A stretch of 64,000 nt of DNA from the NCBI RefSeq assembly GCF_000631985.1, contig NZ_JFYN01000034.1, positions 310,001 to 374,000 of the forward strand, written 5' to 3'. The notes below the pieces were generated by a model that saw nothing but the letters and a program-made list of their open reading frames with translations, had not been told where the DNA came from and searched no databases. Positions 1 to 9,770 of the stretch are shown here, piece after piece (the first letter of the stretch is position 1; each line of letters opens with the position of its first letter). The position numbers and the translations under genes were made by a program. This stretch comes from Pseudomonas sp. RIT288 (GTDB lineage: Bacteria; Pseudomonadota; Gammaproteobacteria; Pseudomonadales; Pseudomonadaceae).

Positions 1-134
1 ATATCGACGGCGGTGAGTTGGTACAGACCATCGAGTTGCTGGAAACCCAGGGCGACAGCACCGTGCTGCGCATGAAAGACAGCAGCGCCAGTCAACCGTT
101 GAGCGAAGCGGAGCAACATGACTTTGCCGAGTGA
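1..134 (+). CDS. LolA-like outer membrane lipoprotein carrier (3' end only)
   Basis: Only the last 43 codons are present; the reading frame begins at base 3 and ends with TGA at 132-134. The visible tail (GGELVQTIELLETQGD... ending SEAEQHDFAE) resembles the C-terminus of LolA-like proteins of aryl polyene clusters, which act in the periplasm as carriers of lipidated cargo. It overlaps the start of the MMPL exporter by 17 bases, so the two are co-translated. The assignment rests mostly on position directly before an MMPL gene in an APE cluster; the fragment is too short for certainty. The protein's N-terminus, and any signal peptide, lie outside the window. Confidence 0.5.
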   Translation, partial: IDGGELVQTIELLETQGDSTVLRMKDSSASQPLSEAEQHDFAE

Positions 135-2457
135 ACGCAGGCTGCCGTGGCTGTTTCTGATCCTGCTGCTGGCGGTCGTCGCGCTGGCCGGATGGCAGTG
201 GCGCGACGGTGCACCGCTGTCGGCCAACCTCATGGAACTGGTGCCCGGGACCAATCCTGACGCCCTCGAACTGCGCGCCGAACAACGCATGCAGGAGCCG
301 CTCAATCGGGAAATGCTGGTGCTGGTCGGCCATGCCGATCGCCAGCAAGCGGTGGCCATGGCGCAGACCCTGGGCGAGCAATGGCAGGCCAGCGGTCTGT
401 TCGAAAAGGTCCAGTGGAACCTGCAGGCGGATCTGCCGGCGCTGCGCACGCAACTGCTGCAAGGTCGACTGGCGATGCTCTCGGCGGATGACCGGCAACT
501 GCTGAGCGAGCATCCCGATGCGTTCATTCAGCAACGGGTGCAGGCGCTGTTCGACCCGTTCAACGGTTTCACTCTGGTACCGAGCCAAGACGACTGGCTA
601 GGCCTGACCGGGCGCATCCAGAACAGCCAGCCGAAACACGGCGCGGTGCAACTGGACATCGGCAGCGGCGCACTGGTCGCCGATGCCGACGGCAAGAGCT
701 GGGTGCTGCTGCGCGCGCGCACCACCGGCAATGCCTTCGACATGAACCTGCCGCTGAAAGTCGCCGATCTGCTGCAGCACAGTCGCGCGCAGGCAGCGAA
801 AGCCGACGTACAACTGTTGGCCGCCAGCGGCCTGCTCTACGCCGCCAACGGTCAGCAACAAGCCACCCGCGAAATGACCTGGGTCGGCGGCGGCGCCACC
901 CTCGGGATTCTGCTGTTGCTGCTGTTGGCGTTTCGTCGCTGGCGGGTGCTGCTGGCGTTCGTGCCGGTGCTGGTGGGCATGCTGTTCGGCGCGGTGGCCT
1001 GCGTGGCGTTGTTCGGCCACATGCATGTGATGACGCTGGTGCTCGGTTCCAGCCTGATCGGCGTGGCGGTGGATTACCCGCTGCACTATCTGTCGAAAAG
1101 CTGGAGCCTCAAGCCGTGGCGCAGCTGGCCGGCGCTGCGCCTGACCCTGTCCGGACTGACGCTGAGCCTGATCACCAGCGCCATCGGTTATCTGGCGCTG
1201 GCCTGGACGCCCTTCCCGGCGCTGACGCAAATCGCAGTGTTCTCCGCCGCCGGCTTGCTCGGCGCTTATTTGTCGGCGGTGTGCCTGCTGCCGGCCCTGC
1301 TGAAAAACGTTGAACTGCAGCCGGCGCAATGGCCGCTGCGTCTGGCCGAGCGTCTGGTGCAACTGCGCGAAACCCTGCTCGAACACGTGCGCACCCCGGT
1401 GCTGCTGGCGCTGCTGATCGCCTTCTGCGCCGGCGGTCTGGTGCAGCTGCAAAGCAAGAACGACATCCGCCAGTGGGTCGGTGCGCCACAACGCCTGACC
1501 GATGAAGCACAAACCATCGCACGCATCACCGGCTATCAGCCGACCAGCCAGTTCTTCCTCGTGCGTGGCGCCAATCAGCAGCAACTGCTGGAGCGTCAGG
1601 CTGCGTTGAGCGAGCGTCTGCAGCAACTGGTCAACCTCGACAAGCTGCAAGGCTACCTGGCGCTTGATCAACTGCTCAGTCCGCCGAGCCAGCAACAGCA
1701 GGTTCGCGAAGCGCTGAGCAAAATGCCGCAGTTCTGGCAGCCGTTGCTCGACCTCGGCGTACCGCTCGCGGCGTTGCAAACCGAGTTGCAACAGTTGCAG
1801 AAGCTGCCCGCCGAGGACATCGACGCGGCACTGGCCGGGCCGTTGGGCGAGCCTTACCGCACGCTGTGGCTCGGGCCGACCGATGACGGCGTGGCGGCGA
1901 TGACCAGCCTGCAAGGGCTGAACAATCCGTCACTGCTGCGGGTGCAGGCGCTGGACTTGCCGGGGGTGATGCTGGTCGATCGTCTCGGCGAATTGAACGC
2001 GGTGTTCGCCGAGACCCAAATCAGCGCCGCCGAACTGAAACTCGCCTCCTGCGTGTTGATCGTGCTGGTGTTGATCGTGCCGTTCGGCTTCGGCGGCGCC
2101 TTGCGCATCGTCGCCCTGCCGTTGCTGGCGGCACTGTGCAGCCTGGCCAGCCTCGGTTGGCTCGGCCAGCCGCTGACGCTGTTCAGCCTGTTCGGCCTGC
2201 TGCTGGTAACGGCGATCAGCGTCGATTACGCGATCCTCATGCGTGAGCAGGTCGGCGGTGCGGCTGTCAGCCTGCTGGGCACCTTGCTGGCAGCGCTGAC
2301 GACCTGGCTGTCGTTCGGGCTGCTGGCGGTGTCCAGTACGCCGGCGGTGAGCAACTTCGGCCTGGCGGTAAGCCTCGGGCTGGCCTTCAGTTTCATTCTG
2401 GCGCCGTGGGCCGGACGTCACGTCCACCGCGCCGCCGTCGTGGAGTCGGCAGCATGA
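118..2457 (+). CDS. MMPL/RND-family exporter of the aryl polyene cluster
   Basis: A 779-residue inner membrane protein with the duplicated RND/MMPL layout: one N-terminal membrane helix (about residues 10-28), a periplasmic domain, a five-helix block (about 258-400), then a second helix near 430, a second periplasmic domain and a second block (about 640-770). Each block carries the hallmark VDY motif (GVAVDY with Asp near residue 319; ISVDY with Asp near 703), the likely proton-relay residues. In APE clusters such a protein is thought to move the aryl polyene-lipid toward the outer membrane with LolA-like and lipoprotein partners; the substrate here is inferred from context. It overlaps the upstream gene by 17 bases and the next by ATGA. 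Confidence 0.85.
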   Translation: MTLPSERRLPWLFLILLLAVVALAGWQWRDGAPLSANLMELVPGTNPDALELRAEQRMQEPLNREMLVLVGHADRQQAVAMAQTLGEQWQASGLFEKVQWNLQADLPALRTQLLQGRLAMLSADDRQLLSEHPDAFIQQRVQALFDPFNGFTLVPSQDDWLGLTGRIQNSQPKHGAVQLDIGSGALVADADGKSWVLLRARTTGNAFDMNLPLKVADLLQHSRAQAAKADVQLLAASGLLYAANGQQQATREMTWVGGGATLGILLLLLLAFRRWRVLLAFVPVLVGMLFGAVACVALFGHMHVMTLVLGSSLIGVAVDYPLHYLSKSWSLKPWRSWPALRLTLSGLTLSLITSAIGYLALAWTPFPALTQIAVFSAAGLLGAYLSAVCLLPALLKNVELQPAQWPLRLAERLVQLRETLLEHVRTPVLLALLIAFCAGGLVQLQSKNDIRQWVGAPQRLTDEAQTIARITGYQPTSQFFLVRGANQQQLLERQAALSERLQQLVNLDKLQGYLALDQLLSPPSQQQQVREALSKMPQFWQPLLDLGVPLAALQTELQQLQKLPAEDIDAALAGPLGEPYRTLWLGPTDDGVAAMTSLQGLNNPSLLRVQALDLPGVMLVDRLGELNAVFAETQISAAELKLASCVLIVLVLIVPFGFGGALRIVALPLLAALCSLASLGWLGQPLTLFSLFGLLLVTAISVDYAILMREQVGGAAVSLLGTLLAALTTWLSFGLLAVSSTPAVSNFGLAVSLGLAFSFILAPWAGRHVHRAAVVESAA

Positions 2458-3617
2458 TGGTCGTCAGCTTCTGGCTGATGGCCCTGGCACTGTTCGCTGT
2501 GGCGACCGGTGTCGGTCGGCATTTCGGCCTGATCCCGATCGTCAGCCAGTTGCTGCTGGCCAGCTTCGGTTTGCCGCTGCTGATGTATTTCTGGATCGAA
2601 CCGGGCTGGCAGCTCAGCGGCGCCGAACTGATTGCGCCGGGGTGGCTGAAAGACCTCTACAGCCTGAGTTTTGCGCTGTTGCTCGGGCACATTCTCAGTG
2701 ATGTGATCGACCTGCGACTGGACCGCCAGAGCGTGAAAATCGCCGTGCCGAGTTTTGCCGTGCCGTTCGCTTGCGGTCTGGCCGCCGCCTGCTGGCTGCT
2801 GCCGGCGCAACCGTGGCTGAACTCGCTGGCGATCGGTCTGGTGTTCGCGATCACGGCGATCCCGGTGCTGTACCTGTACCTGCGCCACATCGACTATCCG
2901 CCCGCCGCCACCCGGCGTCTGGTGCAGACCGCCATCCTCATCGACCTGACCTGCTGGACACTGTTCGGCCTCGCTCAGGGCAGTCTGCATTTGAGCAGTC
3001 TGTTGCTGCCGCTCGGCTTGGCCTGCGTGCCGGTGCTGCTGCATCTGTTGCGCGTGCGTCGACCGCTGACCTACAGCCTCGGCTTCTTCGCGCTGCTGGT
3101 GCTGGCCGAGCACTACAAGCTCAACGCGCTGATTTTCGGCATCGGTTATCTGCTGTGCATGGCCTTGCTGAAAGTGCCATTGGTGCTGCCATTGCCCGCG
3201 CGGTGGATGAGCCGTTTGCAGACGTGGATCGCGATCCCGCTGATCCTCACCTTCGGCATCGTGCAGATCGACGTGCACAGCGCCCTCGCCAGCCTCGGCG
3301 CAGTGCAATGGGCGGCGCTGCTGCTGTTGCCGATTGCCAGTAAACTGCTCGGCAACTGGCTGGGTCTTGGCTGGGCCGGTGCCTCGTTCGAAGGCGCCAG
3401 CCGCTGGCGTGAAAGCGTGCTGCTGAACATTCGCGGCTTGAGCGAAATCGTCTTTCTCAATCTGTTGCTGCAACAACAGCTGATCAGCCCGGCACTGTAC
3501 TTCGCGCTGATGCTGATGGGCCTGATCGCGACGCTGTTGCCGGCCCTGATCGGCCTGCACCGCGCGCCCCTGAAAACCATCGCCACTGCGCCCGGGAGTT
3601 CACGTGCCAACCGTTGA
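2454..3617 (+). CDS. CPA2 cation/proton exchanger-like membrane protein in the APE cluster
   Basis: A 387-residue, very hydrophobic protein with about 11-12 predicted membrane helices. I start it at ATG 2454, which overlaps the MMPL stop as ATGA and follows a GGAG at suitable spacing. Two stretches resemble the Na+/H+ exchanger (CPA2) fold: ITAIPVLYLYL followed by a helix ending ILIDLTCW, and NIRGLSEIVFLNLLL (Arg near residue 327), which matches the NTRGLxELIVLN block of CPA2 antiporters. The usual Asp-Asp ion-binding pair of VDDVLAW is reduced here to Ile-Asp (Asp near residue 164). It may be an exchanger of altered mechanism or a scaffold recruited to pigment export. Family assignment is by eye. 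Confidence 0.6.
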   Translation: MMVVSFWLMALALFAVATGVGRHFGLIPIVSQLLLASFGLPLLMYFWIEPGWQLSGAELIAPGWLKDLYSLSFALLLGHILSDVIDLRLDRQSVKIAVPSFAVPFACGLAAACWLLPAQPWLNSLAIGLVFAITAIPVLYLYLRHIDYPPAATRRLVQTAILIDLTCWTLFGLAQGSLHLSSLLLPLGLACVPVLLHLLRVRRPLTYSLGFFALLVLAEHYKLNALIFGIGYLLCMALLKVPLVLPLPARWMSRLQTWIAIPLILTFGIVQIDVHSALASLGAVQWAALLLLPIASKLLGNWLGLGWAGASFEGASRWRESVLLNIRGLSEIVFLNLLLQQQLISPALYFALMLMGLIATLLPALIGLHRAPLKTIATAPGSSRANR

Positions 3618-4851
3618 AATGCAACGTCGTCAGGTAGTGATCATCGGTGCCGGCCCGTCCGGCGCCATCGCCGCTGCGCTGCTCACGCGCAAGGGCCACG
3701 ATGTGCTGGTGCTCGAGCGCCAGCACTTCCCGAGGTTCTCCATCGGCGAAAGCCTGCTCAGCCATTGCCTGGATTTCGTCGAAGAGGCCGGTATGCTCGA
3801 CGCCGTCAACGCCGCCGGCTTCCAGCACAAGACCGGTGCTGCGTTCGCCTGGGGCGAGCGCTACAGCGCCTTCGATTTCAGCGACACCTTCACCGCAGGT
3901 AAACCCACCACGTTCCAGGTGCAGCGCGCCGATTTCGACAAGCTGCTGGCCGATCAGGCTGAATTGCAGGGTGCCGAAATCCGCTACGGCGACGCCATCG
4001 TCCGCGTCGATTTCGACCGCGCCAAGCCGCAGCTCGACGTGCTGCGCGAAGACGGCAGCGAGTACCGCGTCGACGCGGATTTTGTACTCGACGCCAGCGG
4101 TTACGGGCGCGTGCTGTCGCGCTTGCTCGAGCTGGAAGCACCATCGAATTTCCCGGTGCGCCAGGCGGTGTTCACCCACGTTGAAGATCACATCGACAAC
4201 CCGGCCTTCGACCGCGAGAAGATCCTCGTCACCACCCACCCCGAGCACCGCGACATCTGGTTCTGGACGATCCCGTTCAGCAACGGTCGCTGCTCGGTGG
4301 GCGTGGTGGCTGCCGCCGAACACTTCAAGGGTCGCGACAGCGATCTGGACGCCTGCCTGCGCGGCTTCATCGCCGAAACCCCGAGCCTTGCAGGCGTGCT
4401 GGACAACGCCGTGTGGGACACCCCGGCGCGCACCCTCGGCGGTTATGCGGCCAATGTGAAAACCCTGCATGGTCCGGGCTTCGCCCTGCTCGGCAACGCC
4501 GCGGAGTTTCTCGACCCGGTGTTCTCTTCGGGCGTGACCATCGCCATGCGTTCGGCGAGCATGGCCGCCGCCGTCCTGCACCGGCAGTTGCAGGGCGAAA
4601 CCGTCGACTGGCAGCGCGAGTTCGCCGAGCCACTCAAACGTGGTGTCGACACGTTTCGCTGCTACGTCGAAGGCTGGTACGCCGGCACCTTCCAGGACGT
4701 GATTTTTTATCAAGACAGTCAGGCCGACATACGCCGAATGATCTGCTCGATCCTCGCCGGCTACGCCTGGGATGAACGCAACCCGTTCGTCAGCGAAGCG
4801 CGCCGCCGGTTGAAGATGATTTCCGAACTCTGTGCAAAGGACGCCCCATGA
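3604..4851 (+). CDS. FAD-dependent halogenase-like oxidoreductase
   Basis: A 415-residue flavoprotein of the tryptophan halogenase/geranylgeranyl reductase superfamily. The GTG start at 3604 has GGGAG five bases upstream; ATG 3619 has none. It shows the N-terminal FAD dinucleotide fold (VVIIGAGPSG, residues 11-20), the acidic end of the second strand (LERQ), the FSIGES segment near 46-50, and WFWTIP at 219-224, which fits the WxWxIP signature of flavin-dependent halogenases. Lys76, in FQHKTGAAFAWG, lies where the catalytic lysine of halogenases sits. It may halogenate the aryl head group or the polyene, or it may be a plain flavin oxidoreductase. It overlaps its neighbours on both sides within the APE operon. 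Confidence 0.75.
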   Translation: MPTVEMQRRQVVIIGAGPSGAIAAALLTRKGHDVLVLERQHFPRFSIGESLLSHCLDFVEEAGMLDAVNAAGFQHKTGAAFAWGERYSAFDFSDTFTAGKPTTFQVQRADFDKLLADQAELQGAEIRYGDAIVRVDFDRAKPQLDVLREDGSEYRVDADFVLDASGYGRVLSRLLELEAPSNFPVRQAVFTHVEDHIDNPAFDREKILVTTHPEHRDIWFWTIPFSNGRCSVGVVAAAEHFKGRDSDLDACLRGFIAETPSLAGVLDNAVWDTPARTLGGYAANVKTLHGPGFALLGNAAEFLDPVFSSGVTIAMRSASMAAAVLHRQLQGETVDWQREFAEPLKRGVDTFRCYVEGWYAGTFQDVIFYQDSQADIRRMICSILAGYAWDERNPFVSEARRRLKMISELCAKDAP

Positions 4852-5573
4852 ATTACTTGAGCGACAGCTACGTCGAGGAAACCCGCTTCGGTTTCTGGTT
4901 CCTGCGCAGCCACACCTGGCAGCACCATGTGTTACGCGTGGCGATCAACGACCTGCGCGGGTTGTTCAGCGAGTCGCTGCCGGCCAATCCGGTGCTGCTG
5001 GATGCCGGCTGTGGTCAGGGCAAATCGTTCCGCCACCTGCGCCAGACCTTCGCCCCACTGCGTCTGATCGGCGTCGATGCCGATCCGCACAGCCTGCAAC
5101 TGAGCGCCGAAGAAGCGGTGCGGCAGGGCTTCGACGTCGAGCTGATCGGCAGCGACTGCGCAACGCTAAATGTGGCCGATGCCAGTGTCGACCTGCTGTT
5201 CTGCCATCAGACCTTTCATCATCTGGTCGAACAGGAAAAAGCCCTCGCCGAGTTCTACCGCGTACTGAAGCCGGGCGGTTATCTGCTGTTCGCCGAGTCC
5301 ACCGAGGCTTACATTGATACTTGGGTGATCCGCTGGCTGTTCCGCCATCCGATGCATGTGCAGAAGAGCGCCGCGCAGTACCTGGAGATGATTCGCCAGC
5401 AGGGTTTCGAGTTTGGCGAGCGCAATGTCTCGTACCCATATCTGTGGTGGAGCCGGTCGCAGGATTTCGGACTGCTGGAACGATTCGGATTGCGCCGGCC
5501 AAAGCCGTTTGGCAAGCGTGAGGAAACGTTGGTGAATGTCGTTGCCCGCAAGCCGCTTGAAGGTGATCGTTGA
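4848..5573 (+). CDS. Class I SAM-dependent methyltransferase of the APE cluster
   Basis: A 241-residue cytoplasmic enzyme with a Rossmann-type SAM fold: motif I is LLDAGCGQGKS (about residues 46-56), followed by the acidic residue in LIGVDADP, then a post-I/II region with SVDLLFCHQTFHHL and LKPGGYLLFAEST. These match the methyltransferase 11/25 families. Its start overlaps the halogenase-like gene stop as ATGA. APE head groups carry ring methyl and methoxy decorations, so methylation of the aryl unit or of a lipid carrier is the likely role, but the substrate cannot be read from the sequence. The stop codon is followed within 15 bases by a REP dyad. Confidence 0.75.
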   Translation: MNYLSDSYVEETRFGFWFLRSHTWQHHVLRVAINDLRGLFSESLPANPVLLDAGCGQGKSFRHLRQTFAPLRLIGVDADPHSLQLSAEEAVRQGFDVELIGSDCATLNVADASVDLLFCHQTFHHLVEQEKALAEFYRVLKPGGYLLFAESTEAYIDTWVIRWLFRHPMHVQKSAAQYLEMIRQQGFEFGERNVSYPYLWWSRSQDFGLLERFGLRRPKPFGKREETLVNVVARKPLEGDR

Positions 5574-5587
5574 TGCGACACATAACC

Positions 5588-5678
5588 TGTAGGAGTGAGC
5601 CTGCTCGCGATAGCGATGGGTCAGCCAGCCTCTTTGTTGAATGTGCCGGCGTCTTCGCGAGCAGGTTCGCTCCCACAG
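5588..5678. repeat. REP dyad, family A (at a gene start)
   Basis: TGTAGGAGTGAGCCTGCTCG at the left is inverted at the right as CGAGCAGGTTCGCTCCCACA, separated by about 50 variable bases. It sits in frame in the extended start of the DUF3261 gene. Confidence 0.85.
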
Positions 5679-6169
5679 TGTCCGCGTTGTGGCGACTTTT
5701 TGTGGTCAGCATGATGCTTCTGTTGAGCGCCTGCGCCAGCCAGGCCCCGCTGCCAGCGGGCAACCCGACGCTGCCGTTACCGCTGCAACTGCACATCGAA
5801 CGCCAGCAAGCCGATCAGCGTCAGGACTGGTTGTTGGTGATCCAGCGCGAAGGCCCCGGCATCCGCTGGTCGATGATGGACCCGCTGGGCATCCCGCAGG
5901 CGCGTCAGCAACTGATCGACGGTCGCTGGCAGGCCGACGGGCTGCTGCCGCCCAACCCGGAAGCCCGGGAGCTGTTTGCCGCGTTGCTGTTCGCCCTGAC
6001 GCCGTCCGGCGAACTGGCGCGCAATTATCCCGTCGCACAACAGCAGGGCGAGCAACGCACGCTGGCGCCGCGCTGGACGATCCGTTATGCACAACCGTTG
6101 AGTTTCCAATTGAACCTGCCCCAAGGCCCGCACTATCGGGTTTCTGCCCTCGGTGAACCGACGCCATGA
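5678..6169 (+). CDS. DUF3261-type lipoprotein of the APE cluster
   Basis: A small exported lipoprotein: LFVVSMMLLLSAC is a signal peptide with a lipobox ending in Cys, followed by about 145 residues containing GIRWSMMDPLGIPQARQQL and a C-terminal beta-rich region, as in DUF3261 proteins of APE clusters. The start is unclear. The frame is open back to ATG 5573, which overlaps the methyltransferase stop (TGATG), but codons 5-35 of that version are a REP dyad and would put 52 residues before the lipobox Cys. I prefer GTG 5678, which gives a normal signal peptide although its ribosome binding site is poor. It overlaps the next gene by ATGA. Confidence 0.7.
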   Translation: MSALWRLFVVSMMLLLSACASQAPLPAGNPTLPLPLQLHIERQQADQRQDWLLVIQREGPGIRWSMMDPLGIPQARQQLIDGRWQADGLLPPNPEARELFAALLFALTPSGELARNYPVAQQQGEQRTLAPRWTIRYAQPLSFQLNLPQGPHYRVSALGEPTP

Positions 6170-7362
6170 CTGCCTACCTCAATGCCCTCGGCGTGATCTG
6201 CGCCTTGGGCCGCGACAAGCAACAGGTCGCGCACAACCTGTTTGCCGGTGACTGCTCGGGCATGCGCCGCGAGTCCGGCTGGGTGGCCGGGCGTGAGTTG
6301 CCGGTGGCGGCGGTGCACGGTGAGCTGGCGGCGATTCCGGCCGAACTGGCCGACCAGAGCAGCCGCAACAATCAACTGCTGCTGGAAGCCGCGCTGCAGA
6401 TTCGCGAGGACATCGACCGGGCGATCCAAATCTATGGTCGCGAACGCATCGGCGTGGTGCTCGGCACCAGCACCTCGGGGATCGACGAAGCCAGTCGCGG
6501 GTTGGCGCATTACCTTCGCGAGCAGCAGTTCCCTGCTGAGTACGACTATCGGCAACAGGAGCTCGGCGCCCCGGCGAATTTTCTTGCCGACTGGCTGCAA
6601 CTGAGCGGCCCGGCCTATGTGATTTCCACTGCCTGCACTTCCAGTGCGCGGGCGTTGATGAGCGCGCAGCGCCTGCTCGATCTCGGCCTGTGCGACGCGG
6701 TGCTGTGCGGCGGGGTCGACAGCCTGTGCAAACTGACGCTCAACGGTTTCACTTCACTGGAAGCGGTGTCCGACGAGCGCTGCAATCCGTTCTCGGCCAA
6801 CCGCAATGGCATTAATATCGGCGAAGCGGCGGTGCTGTTTCTGATGAGCAAGCAACGCGGCGACGGCCCGGCCATTGCCCTGCTCGGCAGCGGCGCCAGC
6901 TCCGACGCGCACCACATTTCCGCGCCGGAACCGAGCGGCCGCGGCGCCCTGCAAGCGATGCAGAAAGCCTTGCACCGCGCGCAACTGCAAGCCGGTCAAA
7001 TCAGCTACCTGAACCTGCACGGCACCGCGACCCAGCACAACGATGCGATGGAAAGTCTGGCGGTCGCCACGCTGTTCCCTGAAGGCGTGGCCTGCTCGTC
7101 GACCAAGCCGATGACCGGGCACACTCTCGGCGCTGCCGGTGCCCTCGAAGCGGCGTTCTGCTGGCTGAGCCTGAGCGCCGACAACCCGCAGCAAGCGTTG
7201 CCGCCACACGTCTGGGACGCCCAGCCCGAACCCGACTTGCCGGCGCTGAAGTGGGTGACCGCGAGCGAACGCCTGTCGTCCATTGCACCCCGCTACTTGA
7301 TGAGCAACTCGTTTGCTTTCGGCGGCAACAACGTCAGCCTGATTATCGGAGACGCCCCATGA
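6166..7362 (+). CDS. apeO: Beta-ketoacyl synthase, ApeO-like
   Basis: A 398-residue thiolase-fold ketosynthase with a complete Cys-His-His triad: Cys157 in STACTSS, His285 in LHGTATQ and His319 in GHTLGAAGALE. It therefore catalyses decarboxylative condensation and is not a chain length factor. In the characterised APE system of Xenorhabdus, the KS encoded after the lipoprotein gene is ApeO, which pairs with the chain length factor ApeC; the matching CLF gene would lie left of this window. The start overlaps the lipoprotein stop as ATGA and the stop overlaps the dehydratase start as ATGA, so the PKS proteins are made in a fixed ratio. Family assignment is firm; the O versus R assignment rests on gene order. 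Confidence 0.85.
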   Translation: MTAYLNALGVICALGRDKQQVAHNLFAGDCSGMRRESGWVAGRELPVAAVHGELAAIPAELADQSSRNNQLLLEAALQIREDIDRAIQIYGRERIGVVLGTSTSGIDEASRGLAHYLREQQFPAEYDYRQQELGAPANFLADWLQLSGPAYVISTACTSSARALMSAQRLLDLGLCDAVLCGGVDSLCKLTLNGFTSLEAVSDERCNPFSANRNGINIGEAAVLFLMSKQRGDGPAIALLGSGASSDAHHISAPEPSGRGALQAMQKALHRAQLQAGQISYLNLHGTATQHNDAMESLAVATLFPEGVACSSTKPMTGHTLGAAGALEAAFCWLSLSADNPQQALPPHVWDAQPEPDLPALKWVTASERLSSIAPRYLMSNSFAFGGNNVSLIIGDAP

Positions 7363-7823
7363 ACGACTGGCCGCTCGCCGAATTGCTGCCCCACGCTGGC
7401 GACATGATTCTGATCGAGCACATCCTCGGTTTCGACGAAGAGCAGATCCACACCCGCCTCACGGTCAAGCCCGACGGCTTGTTCAGCCTGCCCGACGGCA
7501 GCCTGCCGGCGTGGGTCGGCATCGAGTTGATGGCGCAGAGCGTCGCCGCGTTCGCCGGTTGCCATGCACGGCAGAAGGGCAACCCGGTGGAGCTGGGTTT
7601 CCTCCTCGGCACGCGCAAATTCGAGTGCAACGTCGAGGCGTTTCCGGCCGGCAGCGAACTGACCATCCACGGTATCCGTTCGCTGGAAGACGACAACGGC
7701 ATGGGTGTTTTCGAATGCCACATCAACGCCCCCGGCATCGAGGCCAGCGCACGCTTGAACGTGTTCCGCCCGCCGCAGCCCAGCCAATACCTTGAACAAA
7801 ACAGAGAGTCGAACGATGACTGA
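7359..7823 (+). CDS. apeP: ApeP-like hotdog 3-hydroxyacyl-ACP dehydratase
   Basis: A 154-residue single hotdog domain. LLPHAGDMILIE carries the catalytic His (residue 12), and GIELMAQ contributes a Glu/Gln pair (residues 56 and 60), as in FabZ/FabA-like and ApeP dehydratases. In APE biosynthesis the dehydratase removes water from the 3-hydroxyacyl-ACP intermediate after ketoreduction, and the missing enoyl reduction leaves the conjugated double bonds. ApeP is reported to work as a heterocomplex with a second hotdog protein, ApeI, which would be encoded upstream of the window. The ATG at 7359 overlaps the KS stop as ATGA. Confidence 0.85.
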   Translation: MNDWPLAELLPHAGDMILIEHILGFDEEQIHTRLTVKPDGLFSLPDGSLPAWVGIELMAQSVAAFAGCHARQKGNPVELGFLLGTRKFECNVEAFPAGSELTIHGIRSLEDDNGMGVFECHINAPGIEASARLNVFRPPQPSQYLEQNRESNDD

Positions 7824-8544
7824 ATCCGTACTGGTCACCGGCTCCAGCCGTGGCATCGGCCGCGCCATTGCCTTGCGTCTGGCGCAGGCCGGGCATGACA
7901 TCGTCTTGCATTGCCGCAGCGGCGTGGCTGAAGCCCAGGCCGTGAAAGCCGAAGTCGAAGCACTGGGGCGTCACGCGCGCATCCTGCAATTCGACGTCGC
8001 CGACCGCGAAACCTGCAAAATCATTCTCGAAACCGACGTCGAAACCCACGGCGCCTATTACGGCGTGGTGCTCAACGCCGGCCTGACCCGCGATGGCGCT
8101 TTTCCGGCGCTGAGCGATGACGATTGGGACGTGGTGCTGCGCACCAACCTCGACGGTTTCTACAACGTCCTGCACCCGGTGATGATGCCGATGATCCGCC
8201 GTCGCGCCGCCGGTCGGATCGTCTGCATCACCTCGGTGTCGGGTTTGATCGGCAACCGTGGCCAGGTCAACTACAGCGCCTCAAAGGCCGGGGTGATCGG
8301 CGCCGCGAAAGCGTTGGCGATTGAACTGGGCAAGCGCAAAATCACCGTTAACTGCGTCGCGCCGGGCCTGATCGATACGGCGATGCTCGACGAAAACGTG
8401 CCGGTGGAAGAACTGATGAAAATGATCCCCGCACAACGCATGGGCACCCCGGAAGAGGTCGCTGCTGCGGTGAATTTCCTGATGTCGGCGGAAGCCTCGT
8501 ACATCACCCGTCAGGTCCTGGCGGTCAACGGAGGCCTGTGCTGA
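7816..8544 (+). CDS. apeQ: 3-ketoacyl-ACP reductase, ApeQ/FabG-like
   Basis: A 242-residue short-chain dehydrogenase. The NADPH-binding motif is TGSSRGIG near the N-terminus, NAG follows the fourth strand, and the catalytic set is Ser140, Tyr153 and Lys157 (YSASK). The C-terminus (INGG-like VNGGLC) is FabG-like. It reduces the 3-keto group of the growing polyene on its carrier protein. The ATG at 7816 is inside the end of the dehydratase gene (8-base overlap). An upstream in-frame start at 7792 would lengthen the overlap without a better ribosome binding site. It is distinct from the housekeeping fabG, which is normally in the fabD-G-acpP cluster. Confidence 0.88.
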   Translation: MTESVLVTGSSRGIGRAIALRLAQAGHDIVLHCRSGVAEAQAVKAEVEALGRHARILQFDVADRETCKIILETDVETHGAYYGVVLNAGLTRDGAFPALSDDDWDVVLRTNLDGFYNVLHPVMMPMIRRRAAGRIVCITSVSGLIGNRGQVNYSASKAGVIGAAKALAIELGKRKITVNCVAPGLIDTAMLDENVPVEELMKMIPAQRMGTPEEVAAAVNFLMSAEASYITRQVLAVNGGLC

Positions 8545-9770
8545 TGAAGCGCGTCGTCGTCACCGGCATGGCCGGCATCACTTCGTTGGGCAGCGACTGG
8601 CAGACCATCGCCGGCAACTTCGCGGCCAACCGCAGCGGCATTCGCCGCATGGACGAGTGGGACCGCTTCAGCGAACTCAACACCCGTCTGGCCGGGCCGA
8701 TCGATGATTTTGAAGTTCCCGCGCACTGGACTCGCAAGCAACTGCGCAGCATGGGTCGGGTGTCACGGCTGGCAGTGGGCGCGGCGGAACAGGCACTGGC
8801 CGACGCCGGCCTGCTCGGTGACGAATCGATCAAGGACGGGCGCATGGGTGTGGCGTGTGGCTCATCCACCGGCAGCACCGACGAGATCAAGGCCTTCGGC
8901 AACATGCTGCTCAACTCGGTGGCCGAGGGTCTCAACGCCAACTCCTACGTGCGGATGATGCCGCACACCACCGCGGCCAACATCAGCATTTTCTTCGGCC
9001 TCACCGGGCGCCTGATCCCGACGTCCAGCGCCTGCACCAGTGGCAGTCAGGGCATCGGCTACGCCTACGAGGCGATCAAGTTCGGGCGTCTGCCGCTGAT
9101 GCTCGCCGGCGGTGCCGAAGAGCTGTGCCCGACCGAAGCCATGGTGTTTGACGCGCTGTACGCCACCAGCCTGAAAAACGACGCGCCACAGACCAGCCCA
9201 CGTCCGTACGACAAGGGCCGCGATGGTCTGGTGATCGGCGAAGGCGGCGGCATGCTGGTGCTCGAAGAGCTGGAGCATGCGCTGGCTCGCGGCGCGCGGA
9301 TCCACGCCGAGGTCGTCGGTTTCGGCAGCAACGCCGACGGCCAGCACACCACCCGCCCCGAGCAGGTCACCATGCGCCGTGCCATGGAACTGGCGCTGGA
9401 AGATGCCGGGCTTGCGCCGGATGACATCGGTTACGTCAATGGTCACGGTACCGCTACAGAACAGGGCGACATTGCCGAAACACTGGCAACCAGCAGTCTG
9501 TTCGGCGAACACATGCCGATCAGCTCGCAGAAGAGTTTTCTCGGCCACACACTCGGGGCCTGCGGCGCGCTGGAGTCGTGGTTCAGCATCGAAATGCTCA
9601 ATCGCGACCTGTACGTGCACACGCTCAACCTCGACGAGGTCGATCCGCACTGCGGCAAACTCGATTACCTGCGCGGCGAATTCCGCCAGATGCATCACGA
9701 GCACGTGATGAACAACAATTTCGCTTTTGGTGGCGTCAACACCTCGTTGATTTTCCGCCGCTGGCACTGA
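8544..9770 (+). CDS. apeR: Beta-ketoacyl synthase, ApeR-like
   Basis: A 408-residue ketosynthase with an intact triad: Cys164 in SSACTSGS, His301 in NGHGTATE and His335 in GHTLGACGALE. It is closer to FabF than the first KS of the cluster. By order it corresponds to ApeR of the characterised APE pathway, a homodimeric KS thought to act in early elongation of the aryl starter. ATG 8544 shares its A with the preceding stop and has a GGAGG eight to nine bases upstream, which decides it over the in-frame GTG at 8538. It is the last recognisable APE gene; the next gene is separated by 25 bases and is unrelated to PKS chemistry. Confidence 0.86.
   Translation: MKRVVVTGMAGITSLGSDWQTIAGNFAANRSGIRRMDEWDRFSELNTRLAGPIDDFEVPAHWTRKQLRSMGRVSRLAVGAAEQALADAGLLGDESIKDGRMGVACGSSTGSTDEIKAFGNMLLNSVAEGLNANSYVRMMPHTTAANISIFFGLTGRLIPTSSACTSGSQGIGYAYEAIKFGRLPLMLAGGAEELCPTEAMVFDALYATSLKNDAPQTSPRPYDKGRDGLVIGEGGGMLVLEELEHALARGARIHAEVVGFGSNADGQHTTRPEQVTMRRAMELALEDAGLAPDDIGYVNGHGTATEQGDIAETLATSSLFGEHMPISSQKSFLGHTLGACGALESWFSIEMLNRDLYVHTLNLDEVDPHCGKLDYLRGEFRQMHHEHVMNNNFAFGGVNTSLIFRRWH

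Follow-up and report, generated by a model that had tools for sequence, protein, structure and literature searches.

Does a halogenase-like flavoprotein encoded in an aryl polyene (APE) biosynthetic cluster place halogen on the pigment, or has the halogenase fold been reused there for another oxidation? The question is raised by the open reading frame at positions 3604–4851 of the 64,000-nucleotide stretch analysed here (the window; positions 310,001 to 374,000 of contig NZ_JFYN01000034.1 from Pseudomonas sp. RIT288). A preliminary description of this DNA pointed to WFWTIP at residues 219–224 and to Lys76 of the product as fitting flavin-dependent halogenases, and left open which of the two answers applies. 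We confirm both features at these positions and conclude that the gene probably encodes a functional flavin-dependent halogenase that tailors the phenolic aryl head of the cluster's APE.

Motifs and predicted fold of the flavoprotein

The gene and the motif positions in it are as follows:

3604..4851, + strand: APE-cluster halogenase-like flavoprotein (clade A; protein P0001), 415 amino acids (aa), GTG start; from translation, Pfam, structure model and alignment
3829..3831, + strand: AAG codon for Lys76, the residue that aligns with the catalytic Lys of flavin-dependent halogenases
4258..4275, + strand: WFWTIP (WxWxIP motif), residues 219–224
4507..4533, + strand: FLDPVFSSG (halogenase motif 3, Fx.Px.Sx.G), residues 302–310

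P0001 matches the Pfam family Trp_halogenase (PF04820) with 94.5 bits (E = 9e-27) against a cut-off of 21, and it is the only PF04820 gene found in its own genome at 1e-10. The GxGxxG motif near the N-terminus reads GAGPSG, with its first residue at position 15. WxWxIP appeared by chance in 24 of 200,000 shuffles of the P0001 sequence, and within the window it occurs once among the 262 segments of 100 aa or more that are free of stops. FLDPVFSSG is a third halogenase motif, additional to the two features noted before. Its Fx.Px.Sx.G definition is taken from PMC12645471, and the roles of the motifs from PMC5945002, PMC10696468 and PMC12645471. According to the last of these, the Lys and an Asp located in motif 3 or close to it together hold the hypohalous acid, and here Asp304 is a candidate for the partner of Lys76. 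The antisense open frame at 3484–4713 (409 aa) gave no Pfam match at 0.01.

The motifs are invariant among relatives. We define clade A as the group with at least 45% identity in a class-level search, and aligned 122 distinct clade-A sequences with the query, keeping segments of at least 330 aa and 39% identity whose alignments exceeded 300 columns. Twelve residues (Lys76, W219, W221, I223, P224, F302, D304, P305, F307, S308, S309 and G310) are identical in all 123 rows. One column of GxGxxG was spot-checked, and holds Gly17 in 122 rows and a gap in one. Lys76 also aligns with a Lys in 3NIX, Mpy16, FasV, CmlS and CndH; the reference for the catalytic Lys is K79 of PrnA, which itself lies outside the alignment.

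A structure model of P0001, based on an alignment (A2) of 28 of the 80 named loci (the best 80 of 593 confirmed loci), has a mean predicted local distance difference test score (pLDDT) of 91.1 and a predicted template modelling score (pTM) of 0.90. Its best solved match is 3NIX from Cytophaga hutchinsonii (Z 52.9 over 403 residues), a structural genomics entry titled only ‘flavoprotein/dehydrogenase’, which gives no function. 3NIX is 41% identical to P0001 by Foldseek and has the same Lys, WxWxIP, FLDPxFSSG and GN variant. This variant concerns residue 298, which lies in a GN(A) motif in clade A, as opposed to GD elsewhere; the Asn is common to 3NIX. The matches after 3NIX are ChlB4 (Z 43.4), PltA (43.0), Mpy16 (42.7), FasV (42.2) and Bmp2 (41.6), and lower down RadH (38.5), CndH (37.9), p-hydroxybenzoate hydroxylases (PHBH; about 35, 35.0) and CmlS (34.7). 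PltA, Mpy16, Bmp2 and ChlB4 share the fold at Z 41.6–43.4, and the motifs and Lys align for Mpy16, but these enzymes are 23–29% identical to P0001 and belong to other pathways. Likewise CmlS, CndH and FasV keep the motifs and the Lys, but at 26–30% identity in structural alignments and in other pathways. PltA, Mpy16 and ChlB4 act on carrier-bound substrates. Bmp2, too, works on a carrier-bound substrate (PMC12645471).

In a tree built without the Aureispira sequence L184, clade A and 3NIX lie on their own side of a branch with support 99/99, and P0001 is not among the sequences of a more distant halogenase-like group, clade X (L137–L147). Mpy16, CmlS, FasV and CndH fall inside the same assemblage as clade A; the exact place of these solved halogenases is unsure because their branches are long. 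QhpG stands on a long separate branch. A further alignment (A1) held P0001, one locus from the genus and 13 of the other 16 class-level clade-A matches; L028 (internal stop), L031 (partial) and L032 were left out.

QhpG is the proven case of reuse, a hydroxylase of the wider family that acts on a protein tryptophan (PMC7876137). It resembles P0001 in fold family, FAD-binding N-terminus and WxW, but has another substrate and lacks the Lys, the IP and motif 3. All six Pseudomonas QhpG sequences have a residue other than Lys at the Lys76 position, WxWMAR in place of WxWxIP and AVDPLSGNG in place of motif 3. The NCBIfam QhpG model gives P0001 128.6 bits (E = 2.9e-37), below the cut-off of 240 bits for that type. 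P0001 likewise falls short of the geranylgeranyl reductase family TIGR02032 (124.2 bits, E = 8e-36; cut-off 158.8). Since all halogenase motifs are kept in clade A and missing from QhpG, the halogenase reading is favoured over reuse of the fold.

The aryl polyene cluster and its optional slot

The flavoprotein gene lies between an MMPL exporter gene and a block encoding a beta-ketoacyl-acyl carrier protein (ACP) synthase (KS), a dehydratase (DH), a ketoreductase (KR) and a second KS:

118..2457, + strand: APE-cluster exporter of the MMPL family (19.2 bits for Pfam MMPL, slightly below the cut-off of 20.5)
2406..3617, + strand: 403-aa protein without a Pfam family, its N-terminus hydrophobic, encoded between the exporter and the flavoprotein
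4848..5573, + strand: S-adenosylmethionine (SAM) methyltransferase, adjoining the flavoprotein
5570..6169, + strand: small protein, start uncertain, no Pfam match; slot annotated DUF3261 in Acinetobacter, Pseudoalteromonas and E. coli records
6166..7362, + strand: beta-ketoacyl-ACP synthase KS1
7371..7823, + strand: ApeP-like DH (PF22817), start approximate
7792..8544, + strand: KR (short-chain dehydrogenase/reductase, SDR)
8538..9770, + strand: beta-ketoacyl-ACP synthase KS2

Upstream of the window the same genome encodes two carrier proteins, a protein with a KS-like N-terminal domain (PF13723) and an AMP-ligase to which an ApeI-like dehydratase is fused. Also encoded there are an acyltransferase and a further one of the lipid-A type, a glycosyltransferase, a thioesterase, an aromatic amino acid lyase and a LolA-like protein. 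The best NCBIfam model for the lyase is the tyrosine ammonia-lyase BagA/FevW (419 bits, below the cut-off of 1000). From the lyase and the other cluster genes we predict a phenolic, tyrosine-derived APE head, which would be a good target for electrophilic halogenation.

The link between the flavoprotein and APE genes is close. All 80 named loci carry KS1 (at least 42% identity), and a separate KS2, KR and DH are each found in 78. The gaps are L055 (a 4-kb contig) and L110 (an 8-kb contig), and for DH L104; the KS2 match in L110 is a cross-match to KS1 and was excluded from the count. By tblastn, the 2406–3617 protein has a match in 37 of the 80 loci and the methyltransferase in 44. Among 149 sampled Pseudomonas genomes, 111 carry the clade-A gene (one match each at 1e-60), and in 110 of these 111 it is tied to the APE cluster; the sole genome with the flavoprotein and without KS1 is a 650-contig assembly. 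At class level 51 of 369 genomes match at 1e-40, 17 with at least 45% identity and the other 34 with at most 36%. Neighbourhoods were taken for 20 of these 51 (nine clade A, eleven clade X), and eight of the nine more distant clade-A neighbourhoods show APE genes.

The presence of APE genes does not require the flavoprotein. KS1 is found in 116 of the 149 Pseudomonas genomes and the flavoprotein in 110 of those 116. The remaining six clusters all keep the lyase, LolA, exporter, small protein, KS, DH, KR and KS within the 18 kb examined, and the methyltransferase is retained in five of them. Similarly, clade A is present in 15 of the 23 genomes whose KS1 matches rank highest at class level (E up to 3e-89), and the other eight give no clade-A match. 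The contrast with E. coli made in the preliminary description holds as well: the annotated APE cluster of E. coli CFT073 has the order MMPL, DUF3261, KS, DH, KR, KS, the first two genes overlap by 4 bases, which leaves the slot empty, and the annotation lists no flavoprotein at any other place in the cluster. The APE of this strain is described as methylated and not halogenated (PMC8253772). Conversely, no methyltransferase match above 45% accompanies the flavoprotein in 36 of the 80 named loci, some of which are cut by contig ends. Core APE genes being those present in every APE cluster, the flavoprotein is not one of them. Because slots can be empty and the flavoprotein and methyltransferase occur separately, the flavoprotein behaves as an independent tailoring gene, neither a core gene nor an obligate partner of the methyltransferase.

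Two side observations concern the gene-loss clusters of Pseudomonas. A protein of the 2406–3617 type is gone together with the flavoprotein in five of the six. In one cluster (L192, genome G093) the flavoprotein and the methyltransferase are both gone and the 2406-type protein is retained.

Clade X and the brominated pigments

Halogenase genes in APE clusters are a known kind (PMC3691225, PMC3949708), which makes the locus less novel than the preliminary description suggested. Wang et al. (2013; PMC3691225) drew halogenase genes beside the pair of KS and chain length factor (CLF) in several APE clusters and report none in Lysobacter, whose pigment lacks the bromine pattern. Our additions are that clade A can be told apart from clade X, that the slot is shown to be optional, and that there are natural gene-loss pairs with which a product test becomes simple.

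Clade X comprises sequences 30–36% identical to P0001 that carry the same motifs and lie apart from clade A in the tree. It is not cleanly one group (2 changes; single origin in 42% of bootstrap trees). One member, L142, lies beside a gene for a XanB2-like chorismatase, with KS, MMPL, LolA and MipA genes, and thus in a xanthomonadin-type cluster; a XanB2-like match is also found in six of the other ten clade-X neighbourhoods. The members near such a chorismatase (L140–L145 and L147) are all from Gammaproteobacteria.

ArcA and XanB1 are similar to P0001 in being encoded by halogenase-like genes inside APE-type clusters, those for arcuflavin and xanthomonadin (PMC3949708, PMC3838355). In Azoarcus arcA adjoins arcB, which is of the XanB2 type (PMC3949708), and in Xanthomonas XanB1 adjoins XanB2, a separate halogenase gene being also named in that cluster (PMC3838355). 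The position of arcA beside arcB suggests that it is of clade X, and gene order points the same way for XanB1. We also considered placing the ArcA/XanB1 type in clade A. This was rejected, as it is the distant group that sits beside the XanB2-like chorismatase and the tree separates the two groups.

Steroidobacter connects clade A with a brominated pigment, at genus level only. The pigment of Steroidobacter cummioxidans 35Y is reported as C27H28Br2O3, and a table in the same paper gives C27H28Br2O2 (PMC5979037). Eleven of 14 Steroidobacter genomes carry clade A, and neighbourhoods were taken for eight of the eleven (L104, L167–L173). Orthologues 57–64% identical to P0001 occur in XanB2-containing clusters of the genus. 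Six of these loci (L104, L167–L171) combine in one cluster the clade-A gene, a XanB2-like gene and a second halogenase-like flavoprotein (WAWLIP, FLDPFYSPG; open frames of 533–574 aa, about 25% identical to P0001); in the other two, 20 kb of neighbourhood revealed neither the XanB2-like gene nor the second flavoprotein. The matching numbers, two halogenase-like proteins and two bromines, lead to the hypothesis that each protein places one bromine. In three examined Steroidobacter genomes without the clade-A gene the PF04820 matches number 0, 1 and 7.

Halogenation weighed against its alternatives

We infer the halogenating chemistry of clade A from the family to which it belongs. If it applies, reduced FAD from a separate reductase would react with O2 to form the C4a-hydroperoxide, and attack of halide on this intermediate would yield hypohalous acid. 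The acid would pass WxWxIP to reach Lys76 (perhaps with Asp304) and be positioned there for electrophilic substitution. The site would most likely be ortho to the phenol OH of the tyrosine-derived 4-hydroxyphenyl head, still bound to the ACP. The carrier-bound substrate, the ortho position and the choice of Br or Cl are all tentative assignments.

Several observations weigh against halogenation. The fold alone has no power to tell halogenases from hydroxylases. Residue 298 is an invariant Asn in clade A and an Asp in QhpG, clade X and the aligned solved halogenases. The scanned cluster genes yielded no flavin reductase. Of two relatives at the margin of the clade, L136 (45% identity, on an 11-kb contig) has no APE gene alongside, and the Aureispira plasmid gene L184 (41%) has no KS annotated nearby. 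The Steroidobacter bromine is not assignable to clade A, because of the second flavoprotein and because each of six examined clade-A-bearing genomes has 7 to 12 PF04820 matches, split ones included. Neither enzymatic nor product data came to light for members of clade A, nor any product data for the organism analysed here. Azoarcus BH72 gives the strongest caution against equating such a gene with halogenation: arcA is listed there as a halogenase gene, and the arcuflavin pigment is nevertheless assigned as non-brominated (Schoner et al., 2014; PMC3949708).

The main rival is a monooxygenase that hydroxylates the aryl ring with a reused halogenase fold, the neighbouring methyltransferase then methylating the new OH. 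PHBH-family hydroxylases do have this fold (Z about 35), hydroxylation is proven for QhpG, a member of the wider family (PMC7876137) whose model hits P0001 at E = 2.9e-37, and a methyltransferase gene adjoins the flavoprotein in the window. The Lys, IP and motif 3, absent from QhpG, are, however, all kept in clade A, and the two genes are uncoupled, in the 36 named loci without a methyltransferase match above 45% as well as in the five Pseudomonas clusters that keep the methyltransferase without the flavoprotein. We therefore consider hydroxylation unlikely. Less likely again is a halogenase that is competent but mostly idle, its product being non-halogenated in usual media so that the gene matters only with bromide. 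The non-brominated Azoarcus pigment would agree with this (PMC3949708), as would the preference of BrvH and CHEESY1 for bromide (PMC5945002, PMC12645471), but active-site residues that show no variation across all 123 rows speak for a steady selection for catalysis. Least probable is an enzyme of the geranylgeranyl reductase type, a saturase or another redox enzyme, acting on the polyene chain; here the superfamily model reaches 124 bits (E = 8e-36) where its cut-off demands 158.8, and halogenases are the closest solved folds once 3NIX is set aside.

Should P0001 halogenate as we favour, many Pseudomonas aryl polyene lipids may carry a halogen that has so far not been looked for. We found no report of a halogenated Pseudomonas APE in the literature searched, the coverage of which was partial, so that absence from print is not shown. 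The optional slot provides natural matched pairs of Pseudomonas species with and without the gene, so the role of halogenation is directly testable. More speculatively, and with more doubt than belief on our side, halogenated aryl polyenes could be what this large branch of APE clusters normally makes, and clade A could be among the most widely carried dedicated bacterial halogenases. APEs would then have been drawn halogen-free because the known structures came from empty-slot clusters (e.g., E. coli) or bromide-free cultures, and in XanB2-containing clusters with two different halogenase-like flavoproteins, each of these would add one bromine. In that case, drawings of a large class of outer-membrane pigments would be missing one of the atoms for many taxa.

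Beyond Pseudomonas, clade A was found, among the matches listed, in Acinetobacter, Cupriavidus, Burkholderia, Achromobacter, Shewanella, Methylococcales and Corallococcus. No clade-A gene was found in 20 genomes of a family reached via the RNA family sX9, where four of the 20 gave matches of 28–32%. A plasmid collection yielded 24 records at 1e-40, one of them (Variovorax) at 33% identity; plasmid-borne relatives occur in Cupriavidus, Burkholderia, Caballeronia, Acinetobacter, Pseudoalteromonas, Neisseria and the Bacteroidota genus Aureispira. One Pseudoalteromonas plasmid record annotates the gene as ‘tryptophan 7-halogenase’. On plasmid pAUEa of Aureispira anguillae, L184 has in its vicinity a gene for a trifunctional MMPL/acyltransferase/methyltransferase protein and one for a second FAD oxidoreductase, surroundings that may be part of a flexirubin-type cluster. 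The records NZ_CP119140.1 and NZ_CP119142.1 are entered as plasmids of Neisseria gonorrhoeae and contain a clade-A relative, about 55% identical and in two pieces; at about 2.17 Mb they look like misfiled chromosomes.

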